Shown in pieces: positions 5,805 through 32,940 of a DNA stretch of 58,239 bases; position 1 is the first letter of the stretch; each line of letters opens with the position of its first letter. The notes under the pieces were generated by a model. That model ran no database searches, was not told the origin of the DNA, and saw only the letters and a program-made list of their open reading frames with translations. The position numbers and the translations under genes were made by a program. Origin of the DNA: Chloracidobacterium sp. (GTDB taxonomy: Bacteria > Acidobacteriota > Blastocatellia > Pyrinomonadales > Pyrinomonadaceae); the NCBI GenBank assembly GCA_025362075.1, contig JANYIL010000200.1:1-58239 (forward strand), in the 5' to 3' direction.

Positions 5805-6278
5805 ATGAACGAACTTTCGCATTTTGATGAGGCGGGAAAAATAAAGATGGTCGATGTTTCGGACAAACAAACGTCTGTCCGCCGTGCCGTCGCCTCGGGA
5901 AAAGTGTTGCTTTCCTCTGCAACTCTCGAAACTCTGAAAACTCAGCCAACTCCCAAAGGCGACCCGCTCGAAATCGCCAGGGTAGCGGGGATCATGGCGG
6001 CCAAAAAAACGTCCGACCTGATTCCACTTTGCCATCAGATCAACTTGTCGAAGGTAAATGTCACGGCTGAGTTTACCGATTACGGTATTCATTTGACCGC
6101 CGAGGCCATCACAAATGCCCAGACCGGGGTCGAAATGGAAGCCTTGACGGCAGTTTCGGTCGCGGCCCTGACAATCTACGACATGTGCAAAGCCGTGCAA
6201 AAGGATATCGTGATTTCGGGCATTCGGCTCGAATCGAAAACTGGTGGCAAGACTTCCGACGCAGAAGGCCACGCGTAA
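5805..6278 (+). CDS. moaC: Cyclic pyranopterin monophosphate synthase MoaC
   Basis: 157 residues from the ATG at 5805 ([19 protein letters not shown]); a GTG three codons upstream falls inside a repeat arm and is less likely. Family motifs include [19 protein letters not shown] and [26 protein letters not shown]. MoaC converts the MoaA product to cyclic pyranopterin monophosphate in molybdenum-cofactor synthesis, as a hexamer. The C-terminus is odd. After GGKTSD the last residues (AEGHA) and the TAA stop are encoded by the left arm of a palindromic repeat, so the original end has probably been replaced. Confidence 0.95.
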
Positions 6279-6335
6279 GCAAGGGCTTATTCGAACGTTG
6301 TATATTACGCCCTTGCTTACGCGCGGGCCTCTGCA
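6259..6335. repeat. Palindromic repeat, GTAAGCAAGGGC family (copy 2)
   Basis: The left arm (about 6261-6287, containing CACGCGTAAGCAAGGGC) is complemented by the right arm (6308-6334). The moaC stop TAA at 6276-6278 lies inside the left arm, so part of the element is translated. Confidence 0.8.
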
Positions 6336-6396
6336 TTTTACGAACTTTCGTTTATAATAAACGTATTCGCTTGTAAGAATAAGGAGTTTTACGAAT

Positions 6397-13302: not shown

Positions 13303-13421
13303 TTAGTTAATAGTGAACAGTGAATAGTGAATAGTGAAAAATATAGAATCGGGGCGACTCAGGTTTTTGCTTCGCTTTCCTCTCTTTAACTGTTCACTGT
13401 TAGCTGTTCACTGTTCACTAC
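13303..13421. repeat. Palindromic cluster of GTGAACA/GTTCACT tandem repeats
   Basis: The left arm (13303-13340) has tandem units like AGTGAACAGTGAATAGTGAA, and the right arm (about 13387-13421) has the complementary GTTCACTGTTAGCTGTTCAC. The MFS transporter stop at 13386-13388 lies at the right arm, so the last residues of that protein are encoded by the repeat. Confidence 0.8.
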
Positions 13422-14663
13422 TTCGCGTTCGGCCTCTTCGATCTCCCGCTGCTTGATTCCTTCGCGGCCGTCGTAGGTCGCAAATTTTGGCAGAAACAAC
13501 GCAGCTCCGGCAACCGCGACGATACACAGCATGCCGCCTGAGATCAATGCGGCCTTCACGCCGTAAAATTCGGCGACGATACCCATTTTAGCACTACCGA
13601 GCATCGGGCCGGTGAGATAGCTCATCATTTCGATGCTCGCCATGCGGCCGCGAATGTAGTTGGGGATCGTCTGATTCCATATCGCACCGCGAAAAATGCC
13701 TGAGATCATATCAAAAAACCCGGCCGCCCCGAGGAAAATAAGAGCTGGCACAATGCTGTCCATGAACCCAAACAAAACGATCGCCACGCCCCACAAAACC
13801 GCCGCGATCGTCACCATCAGGCCGTGACGATGTACATTCTTTGTCCAGCCCGACGTCAAACTCGCCGTCAAAGCTCCGACCGCGATCGCCGCCGGAAAGA
13901 ACCCGACGTATTTCGCACCGTAGATAACCGCTAACGCCGGATACAACGCCTGCGGAAACGCAAAAAACATCGCCGCGATGTCGATAAAGTACGTACCGAC
14001 CAGTTCCTGACGGCTAAAAGCATATTTCCACGCTTTCTTGATCCCCTGAAAACTGGGCTTTTCAGCATTCTCTGGCGATGGCACGGCCTGCAGCAAAAAT
14101 ACTGCGAGCAGCGACGCCGCAAACGTCACCAGGTCAATCGAATACGCTACCGACGGACTGAGCGTCGTCGCGATGATACCCGCCACGGCCGGCCCGACGA
14201 TCATACCGATGCTAAAGCGTATCGAGTTGAGAGCCATTACGGCCGACATCATTTCGGCGGGAATTACCTTCTGAATAAACGATTCGAAAGCCGGCCGCTG
14301 CAACGCCGCGAGTCCCGCGTGAAGCGCGACCGCGACGAACAATATCCAGATCTGCGGCTGCGGCAGCAGCGAATTCCCAAGCAGTATCGCCGTCACCAGC
14401 GTCTGCCCGAACTCGGTATATCGCAGCAGCCTTCGTTTGTCGAGATAGTCCGCCAACGCCCCGCCGACAAACGCCAGACACGTCATCGGCACAAACTCCG
14501 CCAACGAAATGTACCCCACCATCGCCGACGAATGCGTCAACTGATACATCTGCCACGGCACGACGATAAACGTCATCATCGAGCCAAAAAACGACACAAG
14601 CTGCCCGAAAAACAGCAGACGATAATCGCGTGAGGCTTTTAAAGGAGAGAGATCGAGGAGCAT
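13386..14663 (-). CDS. MFS transporter, MFS_3/EntS-like
   Basis: 425 residues from the ATG at 14663, with 12 predicted membrane spans. The N-terminus (SPLKASRDYRLLFFGQLVSFFGSMMTFIVVPWQMYQLT) and the GALADYLDKRRLL loop between spans 2 and 3 match the MFS_3 group, which includes the enterobactin exporter EntS and drug-export relatives. The substrate is unknown. The last residues (VVNSEQLTVNS) are encoded by the right arm of a GTTCACT repeat, an apparently neutral extension of the cytoplasmic tail. It stands alone in the operon sense. Confidence 0.88.
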   Translation of the reverse strand: MLLDLSPLKASRDYRLLFFGQLVSFFGSMMTFIVVPWQMYQLTHSSAMVGYISLAEFVPMTCLAFVGGALADYLDKRRLLRYTEFGQTLVTAILLGNSLLPQPQIWILFVAVALHAGLAALQRPAFESFIQKVIPAEMMSAVMALNSIRFSIGMIVGPAVAGIIATTLSPSVAYSIDLVTFAASLLAVFLLQAVPSPENAEKPSFQGIKKAWKYAFSRQELVGTYFIDIAAMFFAFPQALYPALAVIYGAKYVGFFPAAIAVGALTASLTSGWTKNVHRHGLMVTIAAVLWGVAIVLFGFMDSIVPALIFLGAAGFFDMISGIFRGAIWNQTIPNYIRGRMASIEMMSYLTGPMLGSAKMGIVAEFYGVKAALISGGMLCIVAVAGAALFLPKFATYDGREGIKQREIEEAEREVVNSEQLTVNS

Positions 14664-14778: not shown

Positions 14779-14893
14779 GTAGAGGCCGCGCGTTAGCAAG
14801 GGCTTAACACTCAAGCTGGTTTAATAGTAGTCGCCCGCACGCTCCGCGTATCTACACTCTTGTTAGGTCCTTGCTAACGCGCGGGCTTCTGCA
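14779..14893. repeat. Palindromic repeat, GTTAGCAAGGGC family (copy 3), in a 320-base spacer
   Basis: Left arm (14779-14812, with CGCGTTAGCAAGGGC) and right arm (14865-14893) are inverted. It occupies the middle of the gene-free stretch 14664-14983 between the divergent MFS and PIG-V-like genes. Apart from AT-rich flanks that could hold promoters, nothing else is seen there. Confidence 0.75.
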
Positions 14894-20384: not shown

Positions 20385-21413
20385 ATGTTATCAATTGCCG
20401 ATATCAATGAAGCCCGAACGACGATCGCGGGTTCTGCGATCCGAACACCGCTTGTAAGGCTAAACGTGCCGGACGCGCCGGCCGAGATCTATTTAAAACT
20501 TGAAAACCTGCAGCCCATCGGCTCGTTCAAGATCCGCGGTGCGGCGAACGCCATGGGTCATATGTCGCCTGAGACGCTGTCGCACGGCGTTCTTACGGCG
20601 TCGGCGGGAAACATGGCACAGGGCGTGGCGTGGCAGGCTCGCAAACTCGGCATTCCATGCACGGTCGTGGCTCCCGAAACCGCACCCGAAACAAAGATCC
20701 GTGCCATCGAACGCCTCGGCGGACGGGTCATCAAGGCCCCGCACGAAGTGTGGTGGCGGGCATTCGAAGAACGCTCTTTCCCCGGCGAAGACGGCGCCTT
20801 CATTCACGCATTCGACGATCCCTACGTAATGGCCGGCAACGGAACGATCGCCCTTGAAATAATGGAAGACCTGCCCGACGTTGACGCCATCGTCGTCCCA
20901 TGGGGTGGCGGAGGCCTCGCCTGCGGCATCGCCGCCGCGATGCGTGAACTAAAACCGTCGTGCAAAATCTACGCCGCCGAAGTCGCGACCGCGGCCCCGC
21001 TCGGGCCGTCGATGGCCGCCGGTTCGCCGCAGACAGCCGATTACCAACCGTCGTTTGTCGATGGGATCGGTGCCCGGACCGTATTTCCGCAAATGCTCGC
21101 TCTCGCCCAAACGCTCCTCGACGGAGCCCTCGTCGCCGAACTCGAAGAAGTCTCCTCTGCCCTCCGCCTCATCGCCGAACGCAACCGCGTCATCGCCGAG
21201 GGAGCCGGAGCAACCCCCGTCGCCTGTGTCCTCCGTGCGTTCGGTAACACCAAGAAGGGTGGTTTCTCTGCGGGCCATTCCTCAACTGTTCACCGTTCAC
21301 CGTTCACTGTTCACTCTAAGATCGTCTGCATCGTCTCCGGCGGCAATATCGACTTCGACAAACTCTGCTCGATCCTCACCGCGTCAGAACTGGGAGCGAT
21401 AGCGACTGGGTAA
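20385..21413 (+). CDS. Threonine/serine dehydratase-like PLP enzyme
   Basis: 342 residues, fold-type II PLP enzyme. The PLP lysine is K49 in GSFKIRGA, and the phosphate loop is WGGGGLACG near 174-182. LTASAGNMAQGVAWQARKLG contains the substrate-binding SxGN motif. It probably deaminates threonine or serine to a 2-oxo acid; it is shorter than biosynthetic IlvA because the ACT domain is absent. An insertion (SSTVHRSPFTVHS) encoded by GTTCAC repeats lies before KIVCIVSGGN, and the last residues resemble another dispersed repeat. A second copy of the C-terminal coding segment lies at 22239-22382. Confidence 0.88.
   Translation: MLSIADINEARTTIAGSAIRTPLVRLNVPDAPAEIYLKLENLQPIGSFKIRGAANAMGHMSPETLSHGVLTASAGNMAQGVAWQARKLGIPCTVVAPETAPETKIRAIERLGGRVIKAPHEVWWRAFEERSFPGEDGAFIHAFDDPYVMAGNGTIALEIMEDLPDVDAIVVPWGGGGLACGIAAAMRELKPSCKIYAAEVATAAPLGPSMAAGSPQTADYQPSFVDGIGARTVFPQMLALAQTLLDGALVAELEEVSSALRLIAERNRVIAEGAGATPVACVLRAFGNTKKGGFSAGHSSTVHRSPFTVHSKIVCIVSGGNIDFDKLCSILTASELGAIATG
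21288..21314 (+). repeat. GTTCAC tandem repeat inside the dehydratase gene
   Basis: Four GTTCAC units at 7-base spacing (21288, 21295, 21302, 21309) are translated as part of STVHRSPFTVHS. The same unit makes the palindromic cluster at 13303-13421. The duplicated gene end at 22239 lacks it. Confidence 0.8.
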
Positions 21414-30273: not shown

Positions 30274-30735
30274 ATGGAGCAGCTTTTTGGTGCAATTCCT
30301 GCTGTTTTAAGCGGATTGGGAGCGAACGAAAGCATTGACAAGGCTGTCGTATTCGCCGCATGGCAAAGATGCGCGGGCCAACTGTTACGTGAGCGGATTT
30401 CACCGATGGAGTTTTTTGAAAATCGATTAGTCGTCGCCGTCGCCGACCAAACATGGCAGCGGCATCTGGAAGATCTGAGCCCGCAGATGCTCGCTAAGTT
30501 AAACGGCTCGCTCGGTCAGGGAACCGTAAAGTTTATTGAGTTTCGGATCGACAAAAAGGCCGTAAATTCCGATCTTGCTTCAAGGGAGAAAGCCGATACC
30601 AACAAAGATCGGTCGTTGAAAGTATCGCCGTCGCTCGTGGCCGCAGCCGACGTGATAGCTGATGAAAAGCTGAGGGAACAATTTTTGAGTGCTGCCAATG
30701 TTTACTTGGCAAAACAAAGTGAAGCCGATAGCTGA
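30274..30735 (+). CDS. DUF721/DciA-like protein
   Basis: 153 residues from the ATG at 30274. KAVVFAAWQRCAGQLLRERISPMEFFENRLVVAVADQTWQRHLEDLSPQMLAKLNGSLGQGTVKFIEFRI is the DUF721 core (a W-x-x-[IV]-[AV]-G-type motif, then the RLVVAVADQTWQRHL strand). It resembles DciA, which works with DnaB helicase loading in many bacteria. A disordered, charged tail of about 50 residues follows. Role by family only. gatC lies 40 bases downstream. Confidence 0.75.
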   Translation: MEQLFGAIPAVLSGLGANESIDKAVVFAAWQRCAGQLLRERISPMEFFENRLVVAVADQTWQRHLEDLSPQMLAKLNGSLGQGTVKFIEFRIDKKAVNSDLASREKADTNKDRSLKVSPSLVAAADVIADEKLREQFLSAANVYLAKQSEADS

Positions 30736-30748
30736 TCGCAAATCTGAA

Positions 30749-30764
30749 ATTTGAAATTTCAAAT
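30749..30764. repeat. Perfect 16-base palindrome, TTTGAAATTTCAAA family
   Basis: ATTTGAAATTTCAAAT reads the same on both strands and follows the DciA-like stop (30733-30735) by 13 bases. Related AATTTGAAATCTGAAA runs occur inside moeA (about 5250). It may be a dispersed repeat or a promoter-region element. Confidence 0.55.
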
Positions 30765-30775
30765 CACTTATTCAT

Positions 30776-31057
30776 ATGGACGTTAGAAAAATAGCAAAGC
30801 TCGCTCATCTCGAGATATCGGACGAAGAAGTAGCCCTTTACACACCGCAGATGGTGGATATCGTCAAGTACATTGAGCAATTGAACGAGCTCGATACGGA
30901 TAATATCGAACCGATGCTCGGCGGTTTGACGGCCGAAGGCGAGGCTACGAAAACGATTCGAGAAGATGTCGTTATCGACTCGCTCGGCCAGCAGGCAGCT
31001 CTTAGCGAGGCTCCGTCGGCTGTTGCGGGTCATTTTCAGGTTCCGAAAGTGCTTTAA
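30776..31057 (+). CDS. gatC: Asp/Glu-tRNA amidotransferase subunit C
   Basis: 93 residues, the typical length. VRKIAKLAHLEISDEEVALYTPQMVDIVKYIEQLNELDTDNIEPM is the GatC signature, ending with REDVVIDSLGQQAALSEAPSAVAGHFQVPKVL. It stabilises GatA and GatB in the complex that converts misacylated Glu-tRNA(Gln) or Asp-tRNA(Asn). gatA lies downstream after a lipoprotein gene, and gatB is not in the window. It is probably co-transcribed with both. Confidence 0.94.
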   Translation: MDVRKIAKLAHLEISDEEVALYTPQMVDIVKYIEQLNELDTDNIEPMLGGLTAEGEATKTIREDVVIDSLGQQAALSEAPSAVAGHFQVPKVL

Positions 31058-31059
31058 CA

Positions 31060-31133
31060 ACGCAAAATGTATAATTCACAATGCAAAATTAAGAATCGTC
31101 TCCTTCAATTGTGCATTGTGCATTGTGCATTCA
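31060..31133. repeat. Palindromic repeat of ATTCACAATGCAAAA / TTGTGCATTG units
   Basis: The left arm (about 31060-31092) and the right arm with tandem GTGCATT units (31110-31133) are inverted. It covers the start codon and the first 22 or so codons of the lipoprotein gene at 31067. Confidence 0.75.
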
Positions 31134-31537
31134 TCATTGCCGGGTGCAGTATTCCAAGCCTCGAAAAGCCTGAATGCACGCAGGCGCGTGACGCGGTGAA
31201 ACAGTTTTACTCGTTCCATTTTGGCAACGACATGCATCCGACGGCGGAGAATTTAAAAATGCGTCAGCGATACTTAACAGAAAATTTTTACAAGAAACTC
31301 ATGGTTGACGCAACTGGTTTGCCGCCAACGAAAATAGACTATTTTACATTTTCGGAAGAGCCTCCTAAAACGTTCAAGATTGGAAAATGCGAAGCTGCCC
31401 AGCCAAATAAAGCGAATGTGCAGGTGCAGATCTATTGGCGAGACGACACCAAAACAGTGCAAAAAGAAGTAAACGTTGAGGCCGTGAATCAGAAAGACGT
31501 CTGGCTAATTGATGATGTCCACCAGGTTTCTAATTGA
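31067..31537 (+). CDS. Lipoprotein with repeat-derived signal peptide
   Basis: 156 residues. The signal peptide [27 protein letters not shown] ends in a lipobox (IIAGC, Cys27). This whole signal except the lipobox is encoded by a palindromic GTGCATT repeat. The mature part has no recognised family: [22 protein letters not shown], then [30 protein letters not shown], and a final strand pair ending [12 protein letters not shown], like a small NTF2/DUF3828-type fold. It lies between gatC and gatA and was probably inserted there. Confidence 0.7.
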
Positions 31538-31542
31538 TATTT

Positions 31543-32940
31543 ATGTCCGTTGTTTCAGATATAGAAAAGGTTCTCGGCAATGCCGAGAAACTCAACCCCG
31601 AACTTAACTCGTTCCTCTCGATCGAGCGGGAAAATGCTTTGGCACGCGCTGCCGAGATCGATTCTAAGACGGGCGAACAGAAACTTCGCGGCCTGGCCGT
31701 CGCCGTTAAAGACAACATCTGCACCAAAGGCATGCGCACGTCGTGCGGGTCGCGCATCCTGCATAATTACAGGGCTCAATATGACGCGACCGCGATCTCG
31801 CGGCTGAATGCGGCAGGGGCGATCGTGGTCGGCAAGACGAACATGGATGAATTCGCCATGGGTTCGTCGAACGAATCGTCAGCATTTGGGCCGGCCAAAA
31901 ACCCGTGGGACGTGACGCGTGTGCCGGGCGGCAGTTCCGGTGGCTCGGCTGTAGCCGTTGCTTCGGGTGTTGTTCGAGTGGCTTTGGGTTCTGAGACCGG
32001 CGGCTCCGTCCGTCAGCCGGCTTCGTTGTGCGGCATAGGCGGCCTTAAACCGACATACGGCCGCATTTCGCGATACGGCCTTGTCGCGTTTGCGTCATCT
32101 CTCGATAGTATTGGTATTTTTGGCAAAACTTCGCGTGATATCGCTGAGGTGCTGGGTGTGATTGCGGGACGGGATCCGCTCGACTCGACCTCGGCGGATG
32201 TTCCCGTGTCCGATTACATCGCCAACATAACAAATAGCATCGAAGGCAAAACTATCGGCGTGCCGCGCGAGCTATTGGGCGACGGGATGGATGCTGATGT
32301 CCGCGAAAAGGTTTACGCTGCTATCGATAATTTTGTGAGTCTCGGTGCCAAAAGGGTGGATATTGAACTTCCCTACGCCAAATACGGCATCGCCGTTTAC
32401 TACATCATCGCGACCGCCGAGGCGTCGTCAAATCTTGCCCGATACGATGGCGTCCGTTACGGTTTTCGTGCCGATGAGTCGGACGAGTTGCGAAAAATGT
32501 ACTTCAAAACTCGCGAGGAGGGTTTCGGGCCCGAGGTCAAGCGCCGCATCATGCTCGGCACGTATGTGCTGTCAAGCGGGTATTACGACGCCTATTATTC
32601 AAAAGCGCAGAAGGTCCGGGCATTGGTCAAACGCGATTACGTTGCGGCATTTACAAAATGCGACGCGATCCTGACGCCGACCTCGCCATCGGTCGCGTTC
32701 AAAATAGGTGAAAAATCGGACGATCCGCTCGCGATGTATCTGAACGATATCTATACGGTATCGGCTAATCTGGCCGGTGTTCCAGCCATCAGCATACCGT
32801 GCGGGCTCTCGAATGACGGATTGCCGGTCGGCGTCCAGCTGGTAGGTAATTTCTGGTCCGAGGATGCCCTGTTAAATTTTGCCCACACGTACGAAACGGC
32901 CTACCCACTTAATGAGAAGCCGCCCGTTTACGCAGATTGA
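31543..32940 (+). CDS. gatA: Asp/Glu-tRNA amidotransferase subunit A
   Basis: 465 residues from the ATG at 31543 (a TTG at 31534 is less likely). The amidase triad is visible: Lys in [10 protein letters not shown], Ser in [10 protein letters not shown], nucleophile Ser in [45 protein letters not shown] and [17 protein letters not shown] complete the family pattern. It releases ammonia from glutamine for the GatCAB complex. The gene starts just after the lipoprotein stop (31535-31537), within an apparent operon gatC-lipoprotein-gatA. Confidence 0.95.

Follow-up and report, generated by a model that had tools for sequence, protein, structure and literature searches.

An inverted repeat built of 7-nt units appears to have become, and to be inherited as, the coding sequence of the type II signal peptide of an older lipoprotein, a reading to which we assign a probability of roughly 0.7. 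The repeat lies between gatC and gatA in a 58,239-nucleotide stretch of a Chloracidobacterium sp. genome (contig JANYIL010000200.1; the whole stretch is referred to here as the window). On the plus strand, the 156-aa lipoprotein gene (31067..31537) is preceded by gatC (30776..31057; Pfam GatC, E 6e-17) and followed by gatA (31543..32940; Pfam Amidase, E 1.5e-151), with 9 nt separating the gatC stop from the lipoprotein ATG. The left arm of the repeat (31066..31090) is A-rich, holds the ATG and encodes the polar and basic n-region MYNSQCKI, the 16-nt loop (31091..31106) supplies the last n-region residues, KNRLL, and the right arm (31107..31131) repeats the heptamer TTGTGCA three times in tandem and specifies the hydrophobic core LCIVHCAF. 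The arms are 25 nt each, are 84% complementary, and cover codons 1 to 8 and about 14 to 22. A first-pass annotation of this DNA had proposed that a palindrome coincides with about the first 22 lipoprotein codons and that its arms encode a basic N terminus and a hydrophobic core, and both proposals were borne out. The ORF and the alignment place the end of the signal-peptide coding stretch (31067..31147, 27 codons) at the lipobox IAG↓C, whose Cys is codon 27 (31145-31147).

The repetitive character of this region is pronounced. Between the gatC stop and the Cys codon, dinucleotide shuffles gave p = 0.002 for 7-nt autocorrelation and p = 0.005 for the inverted repeat, with a fold z of -3.2. The 16-mer TTGTGCATTGTGCATT occurs exactly at 31109-31124 and 31116-31131, and when up to three mismatches were allowed it had five sites in the window, all inside the palindrome (shuffle mean 0.41, maximum 4). 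Our array survey recovered a 7-nt array covering the right arm (31103-31142) and a second heptamer array directly 5' of gatC, outside the signal peptide (30723..30765).

Read from the ATG at 31067, the leader has a basic n-region, a hydrophobic core and IAG↓C, and so conforms to the lipoprotein (type II) signal-peptide pattern, the lipobox having been judged against its usual form. In-frame TTG and GTG codons are present in the right arm, and starts there would leave a very short leader without a basic residue, so that translation beginning downstream, which the first-pass annotation had named as a point against its own reading, is unlikely. Among the in-frame starts, a basic n-region results only from the ATG in the left arm, and translation likely begins there; the product is predicted to be exported and lipidated. 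Across seven aligned species, this one included, the coding frame of the element contains no stop in 7/7, and the other two frames are stopped in 4/7 and 2/7; the inverted repeat lies in frame within a conserved gene, as do the protein-coding mobile palindromes of the RPE and YPAL kind. In the same seven species, pN/pS was 0.79 in frame, with a bootstrap interval that includes 1 (0.56-1.11), compared to 1.04 and 1.07 out of frame; purifying selection on the peptide encoded by the repeat is weak, a point against our main reading.

Homologs of the lipoprotein were found in 52 of 117 sampled relatives and in 62 of 119 family genomes. We read 63 loci, of which 58 include gatC; the five without gatC in the stretch (L035 and L047-L050) were left out, and places in G040, G080 and G099 and two in G120 lie outside the 63. 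The mature part is weakly like DUF3828 (E 0.0045, below the curated cut-off), a family matched by 6 of 12 orthologs with a best E value of 6e-7. Searches of NCBIfam and PADLOC gave no match, no relative was retrieved when GTDB contigs were searched with a degenerate pattern, and AlphaFold2 run on the single lipoprotein sequence returned a pLDDT of 37. The lipobox Cys is invariant in 12/12 aligned orthologs, whose mature part is conserved too, and a Cys stands ahead of the conserved mature part in 58/58 gatC-linked orthologs. In the main test set, 53 of 55 orthologs have an in-frame start within -6 to +30 nt of the gatC stop.

Many of the orthologs between gatC and gatA have ordinary leaders of unrelated sequence that end in the same lipobox. 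Since the Cys is kept in all 58, many of them with ordinary leaders, we concluded that the lipoprotein and its export predate the repeat. The first-pass annotation had seen here the birth of an export signal, a description that does not survive this comparison, given that most of the Cys-bearing orthologs have ordinary signals. Its further suggestion that an earlier signal had been replaced fits these orthologs well: the distance from the gatC stop to the Cys has a median of 80 nt in repeat-bearing orthologs versus 81 nt in the others (p = 0.84), and because the stretch is no longer when it carries the repeat, replacement fits better than plain insertion. Orthologs with non-repeat signals at the same position had been expected to count against the whole idea; many orthologs do have such signals and others have repeats, which points to replacement rather than to an artifact. 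The ortholog junctions are too diverged for an empty site to be defined.

The 7-nt periodicity recurs at this junction across relatives. We scored autocorrelation at 7 nt from the gatC stop to the Cys in 55 orthologs, calling it significant at p < 0.01 against 300 composition-preserving shuffles. It was significant in 24/55, and in none of three orthologs left out of the 55 by the motif filter and tested separately (L127, with p 0.04, L130 and L137), for a total of 24/58. The same stretches were periodic at 6 nt in 0/55 and at 8 nt in 2/55. Elsewhere at the locus, 7-nt periodicity was found in 0/55 gatC 3' ends, 2/55 mature lipoprotein regions and 0/54 regions between the lipoprotein stop and the gatA start; the 85 nt 5' of gatC were periodic in 9/55. 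In 1.58 Mb from ten genomes, 3 of 182 further genes with signal peptides and 7 of 1,082 other gene starts had it (Fisher p about 1e-14 and about 2e-28, respectively, against the junction; the 182 are a hand count of 68 + 117 minus three true junction copies in G000, G012 and G033). The units vary by ortholog and include TTGTGCA, TTTTGCA, TTCTGCA, TTTTTAC, TTCTGTC, CTTACTG and others. Most repeat-bearing junctions are purine-rich in their left part and pyrimidine-rich in their right part.

These comparisons bear on the simplest alternative, that this is an ordinary T-rich signal peptide whose repeat is a chance result of coding for a hydrophobic core. Any hydrophobic core is T-rich, and several cases with a single T-rich arm (L006, L007, L021, L025 and L026) are near the threshold and may be plain T-rich signals. 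However, the periodicity is specific to 7 nt under shuffles that preserve composition, other signal peptides rarely have it, left arms are often periodic and complementary as well, and TTGTGCA is dispersed elsewhere in this genome, so we regard chance as extremely improbable.

The position of the palindrome also suggests that what is selected could be an RNA stem near the lipoprotein start that couples its translation to gatC, with the signal peptide a by-product. The ATG sits within the left arm just past the gatC stop, the predicted RNA fold of 31040-31160 (-30.7 kcal/mol) is stronger than that of shuffles (z = -3.04), and many orthologs have a start that overlaps the gatC stop and is followed directly by the left arm. 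Nevertheless, the repeat is absent from 34/58 orthologs, the inverted repeat is significant in only 7/45, the left and right parts are noncomplementary at several repeat-bearing junctions (L014, L031 and L133), and covariation in the seven aligned species, assessed in one pairing register, was not above shuffles (95/500 as high). Rfam had no match in the window. We therefore consider selection for a stem improbable; a role for the hairpin in coupling the lipoprotein to gatC is possible, unsupported by covariation.

With regard to history, the element is not recent in this genome, since six other species share it. Two of the seven sequences have the same 3-nt deletion and the alignment is otherwise free of gaps, so that inheritance of a single element within this group is favored. 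On a tree of gatC plus gatA, with repeat state labeled at p < 0.015 (26 rows), we counted at least 13 changes of state, six of them forced by the starred branches. The unrelated heptamers at the same junction in other lineages imply that the event happened more than once or that units were wholly replaced. Tree distances are large, and a 7-nt periodicity that is not maintained would be expected to decay. Right-arm units have a similarity of 0.837 within species, compared to 0.771 for the same unit across species (p = 0.0006), and left-arm units 0.745 compared to 0.704 (p = 0.005). As units are more alike within than across species, they have been homogenized in place.

Homogenization in place, together with a unit length not divisible by 3, raises the question of a contingency locus, in which the lipoprotein would be switched off or on by frameshifts as units are added or removed, as happens with the pentamers of Neisseria opa. 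The account of opa in PMC3960869 places CTCTT tandem repeats in leader-peptide DNA, a likeness to the present locus; those repeats are direct pentamers serving phase variation, whereas here the unit is a heptamer, in many cases inverted, and frame switching is not evident. An in-frame start lies within -6 to +30 nt of the gatC stop in 25 of 26 repeat-bearing orthologs; in the remaining one, L126, an in-frame ATG comes a little later. The one 3-nt deletion is the sole difference of length among the seven aligned species, and no frame-changing variants in unit number of the opa kind were found in the orthologs or in those species. Three repeat units are, moreover, short for fast slippage. Taken together, these points make frame switching very unlikely.

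Whether units were copied from elsewhere in the genome appears to differ among genomes. Exact TTGTGCATTGTGCATT occurs in 3/41 genus genomes, the same three that have TTGTGCA at the junction (G000, G024 and G025), and in each of them the 16-mer is also present away from the junction, for the most part between genes and frequently as hairpins. Similarly, TTTTTAC has 46 matches in G066, whose junction bears this unit. In contrast, CTTCTGTC in G124, G133 and G134 and CTTACTGC in G036 occur at the junction only, and copying from a dispersed family is therefore not general. Some genomes have likely exchanged units with dispersed copies, and in others no such exchange is visible. We also observed that G041, G063, G066 and G117 each have at least 40 exact matches to a single heptamer motif (overlaps counted) and that most relatives have none.

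How a palindrome could serve as a signal peptide can be seen from the code. A signal peptide requires a basic beginning and then a hydrophobic segment. In the genetic code, most codons rich in T specify hydrophobic residues, and most of those rich in A specify polar or basic ones. Because of this bias, a palindrome whose first arm is A-rich and whose second arm is the T-rich reverse complement of the first reads as an n-region followed by a core. We infer that, in an ancestor of the clade, the DNA between the gatC stop and the lipobox came to be occupied by a heptamer palindrome. Its A-rich left arm would have supplied the polar, basic n-region and its T-rich right arm the hydrophobic core, and the final residues ahead of the Cys may be a remnant of the older signal. 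Slippage, which we likewise infer, or conversion among the 7-nt units would then have rewritten them in step within each species while export was kept.

Such repeats do not seem to be specially suited to this role. Heptamer arrays are common in these genomes, with 49 in 1.22 Mb from seven genomes compared to 13 at 6 nt and 6 at 8 nt (two N-runs excluded). Of 94 surveyed arrays, 16 gave a hydrophobic open stretch from the pyrimidine-rich strand and none from the purine strand, no more than random noncoding DNA (262/1,855), so that a repeat is permissible as a signal and not favored. We accordingly rejected the idea that heptamer hairpins are ready-made signals, on this lighter test and on a stricter one (3/35 versus 36/675 random noncoding sequences) that was too strict, in that it missed the junction locus itself. 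Inheritance and self-homogenization explain part of the preference for this junction over other signal peptides.

A bolder extension, which we hold tentatively and at somewhat less than even odds, is that the junction harbors a long-lived, self-rewriting coding palindrome whose units are homogenized and sometimes swapped wholesale, so that across the family the signal has been replaced repeatedly with its function surviving. Function could survive replacement of the sequence because a signal needs only its basic start and hydrophobic core. If true, concerted evolution would be at work within the coding sequence of a signal peptide belonging to an essential operon.

Several described systems share features with this junction. 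At Yersinia locus YPO1552, the passages on YPAL/RU-2 in PMC2229807 describe a small palindromic element that partly forms a predicted signal peptide, and the likeness lies in a palindromic repeat contributing to the signal peptide of an exported protein; there, a mobile element fused to a chromosomal segment was proposed to give a new protein, whereas here the signal of an old lipoprotein is rewritten by heptamers repeatedly across species. Rickettsia palindromic elements (RPE) are likewise palindromes read in frame inside real genes, according to the parts of PMC2229807 and PMC10969869 that treat them; they form families of about 105-150 bp with their own sequence and scattered targets, in contrast to a 7-nt unit that varies by genome at one junction repeatedly. 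The TAACTGA repeats of Beggiatoaceae, Cyanobacteria and Bacteroidetes are also dispersed 7-nt tandem units, often beside start codons and occasionally inside ORFs; they consist of one fixed heptamer, nearly always direct and mostly upstream of starts, and the relevant sections of PMC4679880 describe no signal-peptide role. As far as these sources go, signal peptides made from repeats (Yersinia YPAL and Neisseria opa) are already known, and what looks new is that a single operon junction has been rewritten recurrently and in concert. Titles and abstract beginnings in the open-licence literature yielded no report of a signal peptide rewritten in several species by heptamer palindromes.

At this locus, repeat turnover of a noncoding style continually rewrites a stretch of protein that nevertheless survives. 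Signal peptides are said to evolve easily, in that almost any basic-plus-hydrophobic stretch works, and dozens of species with many units at one gene position form a natural series for testing this claim. For annotators, starts inside repeats can be real.

We also noted other heptamers and palindromes in coding DNA. In the window, a PALP-domain enzyme (CDS 20466-21413) has close to its end an in-frame heptamer array (21276-21325) that encodes SSTVHRSPFTVHS just before KIVCIVSGGN, and an MFS transporter on the minus strand (CDS 13386-14663) has its C-terminal tail, VNSEQLTVNS, encoded by one arm of a heptamer hairpin of GTGAACA units (13304-13424). A second, unrelated family of dispersed palindromes, with GTTACGCCCTTGCTTACGC, occupies 1892-1969, 6258-6336 and 14783-14893. 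Outside the window, an AIR carboxylase (PurE-like; L082 8975-9505, G000 contig C17) has an N-terminal extension, MPQKKESKITDQRSKID, encoded by GATCAAA heptamers, and another signal-peptide gene (L169 about 1007-1099, in G045) has the heptamer-like core MSKGKFDIKVLVLISHFSILIFFC.
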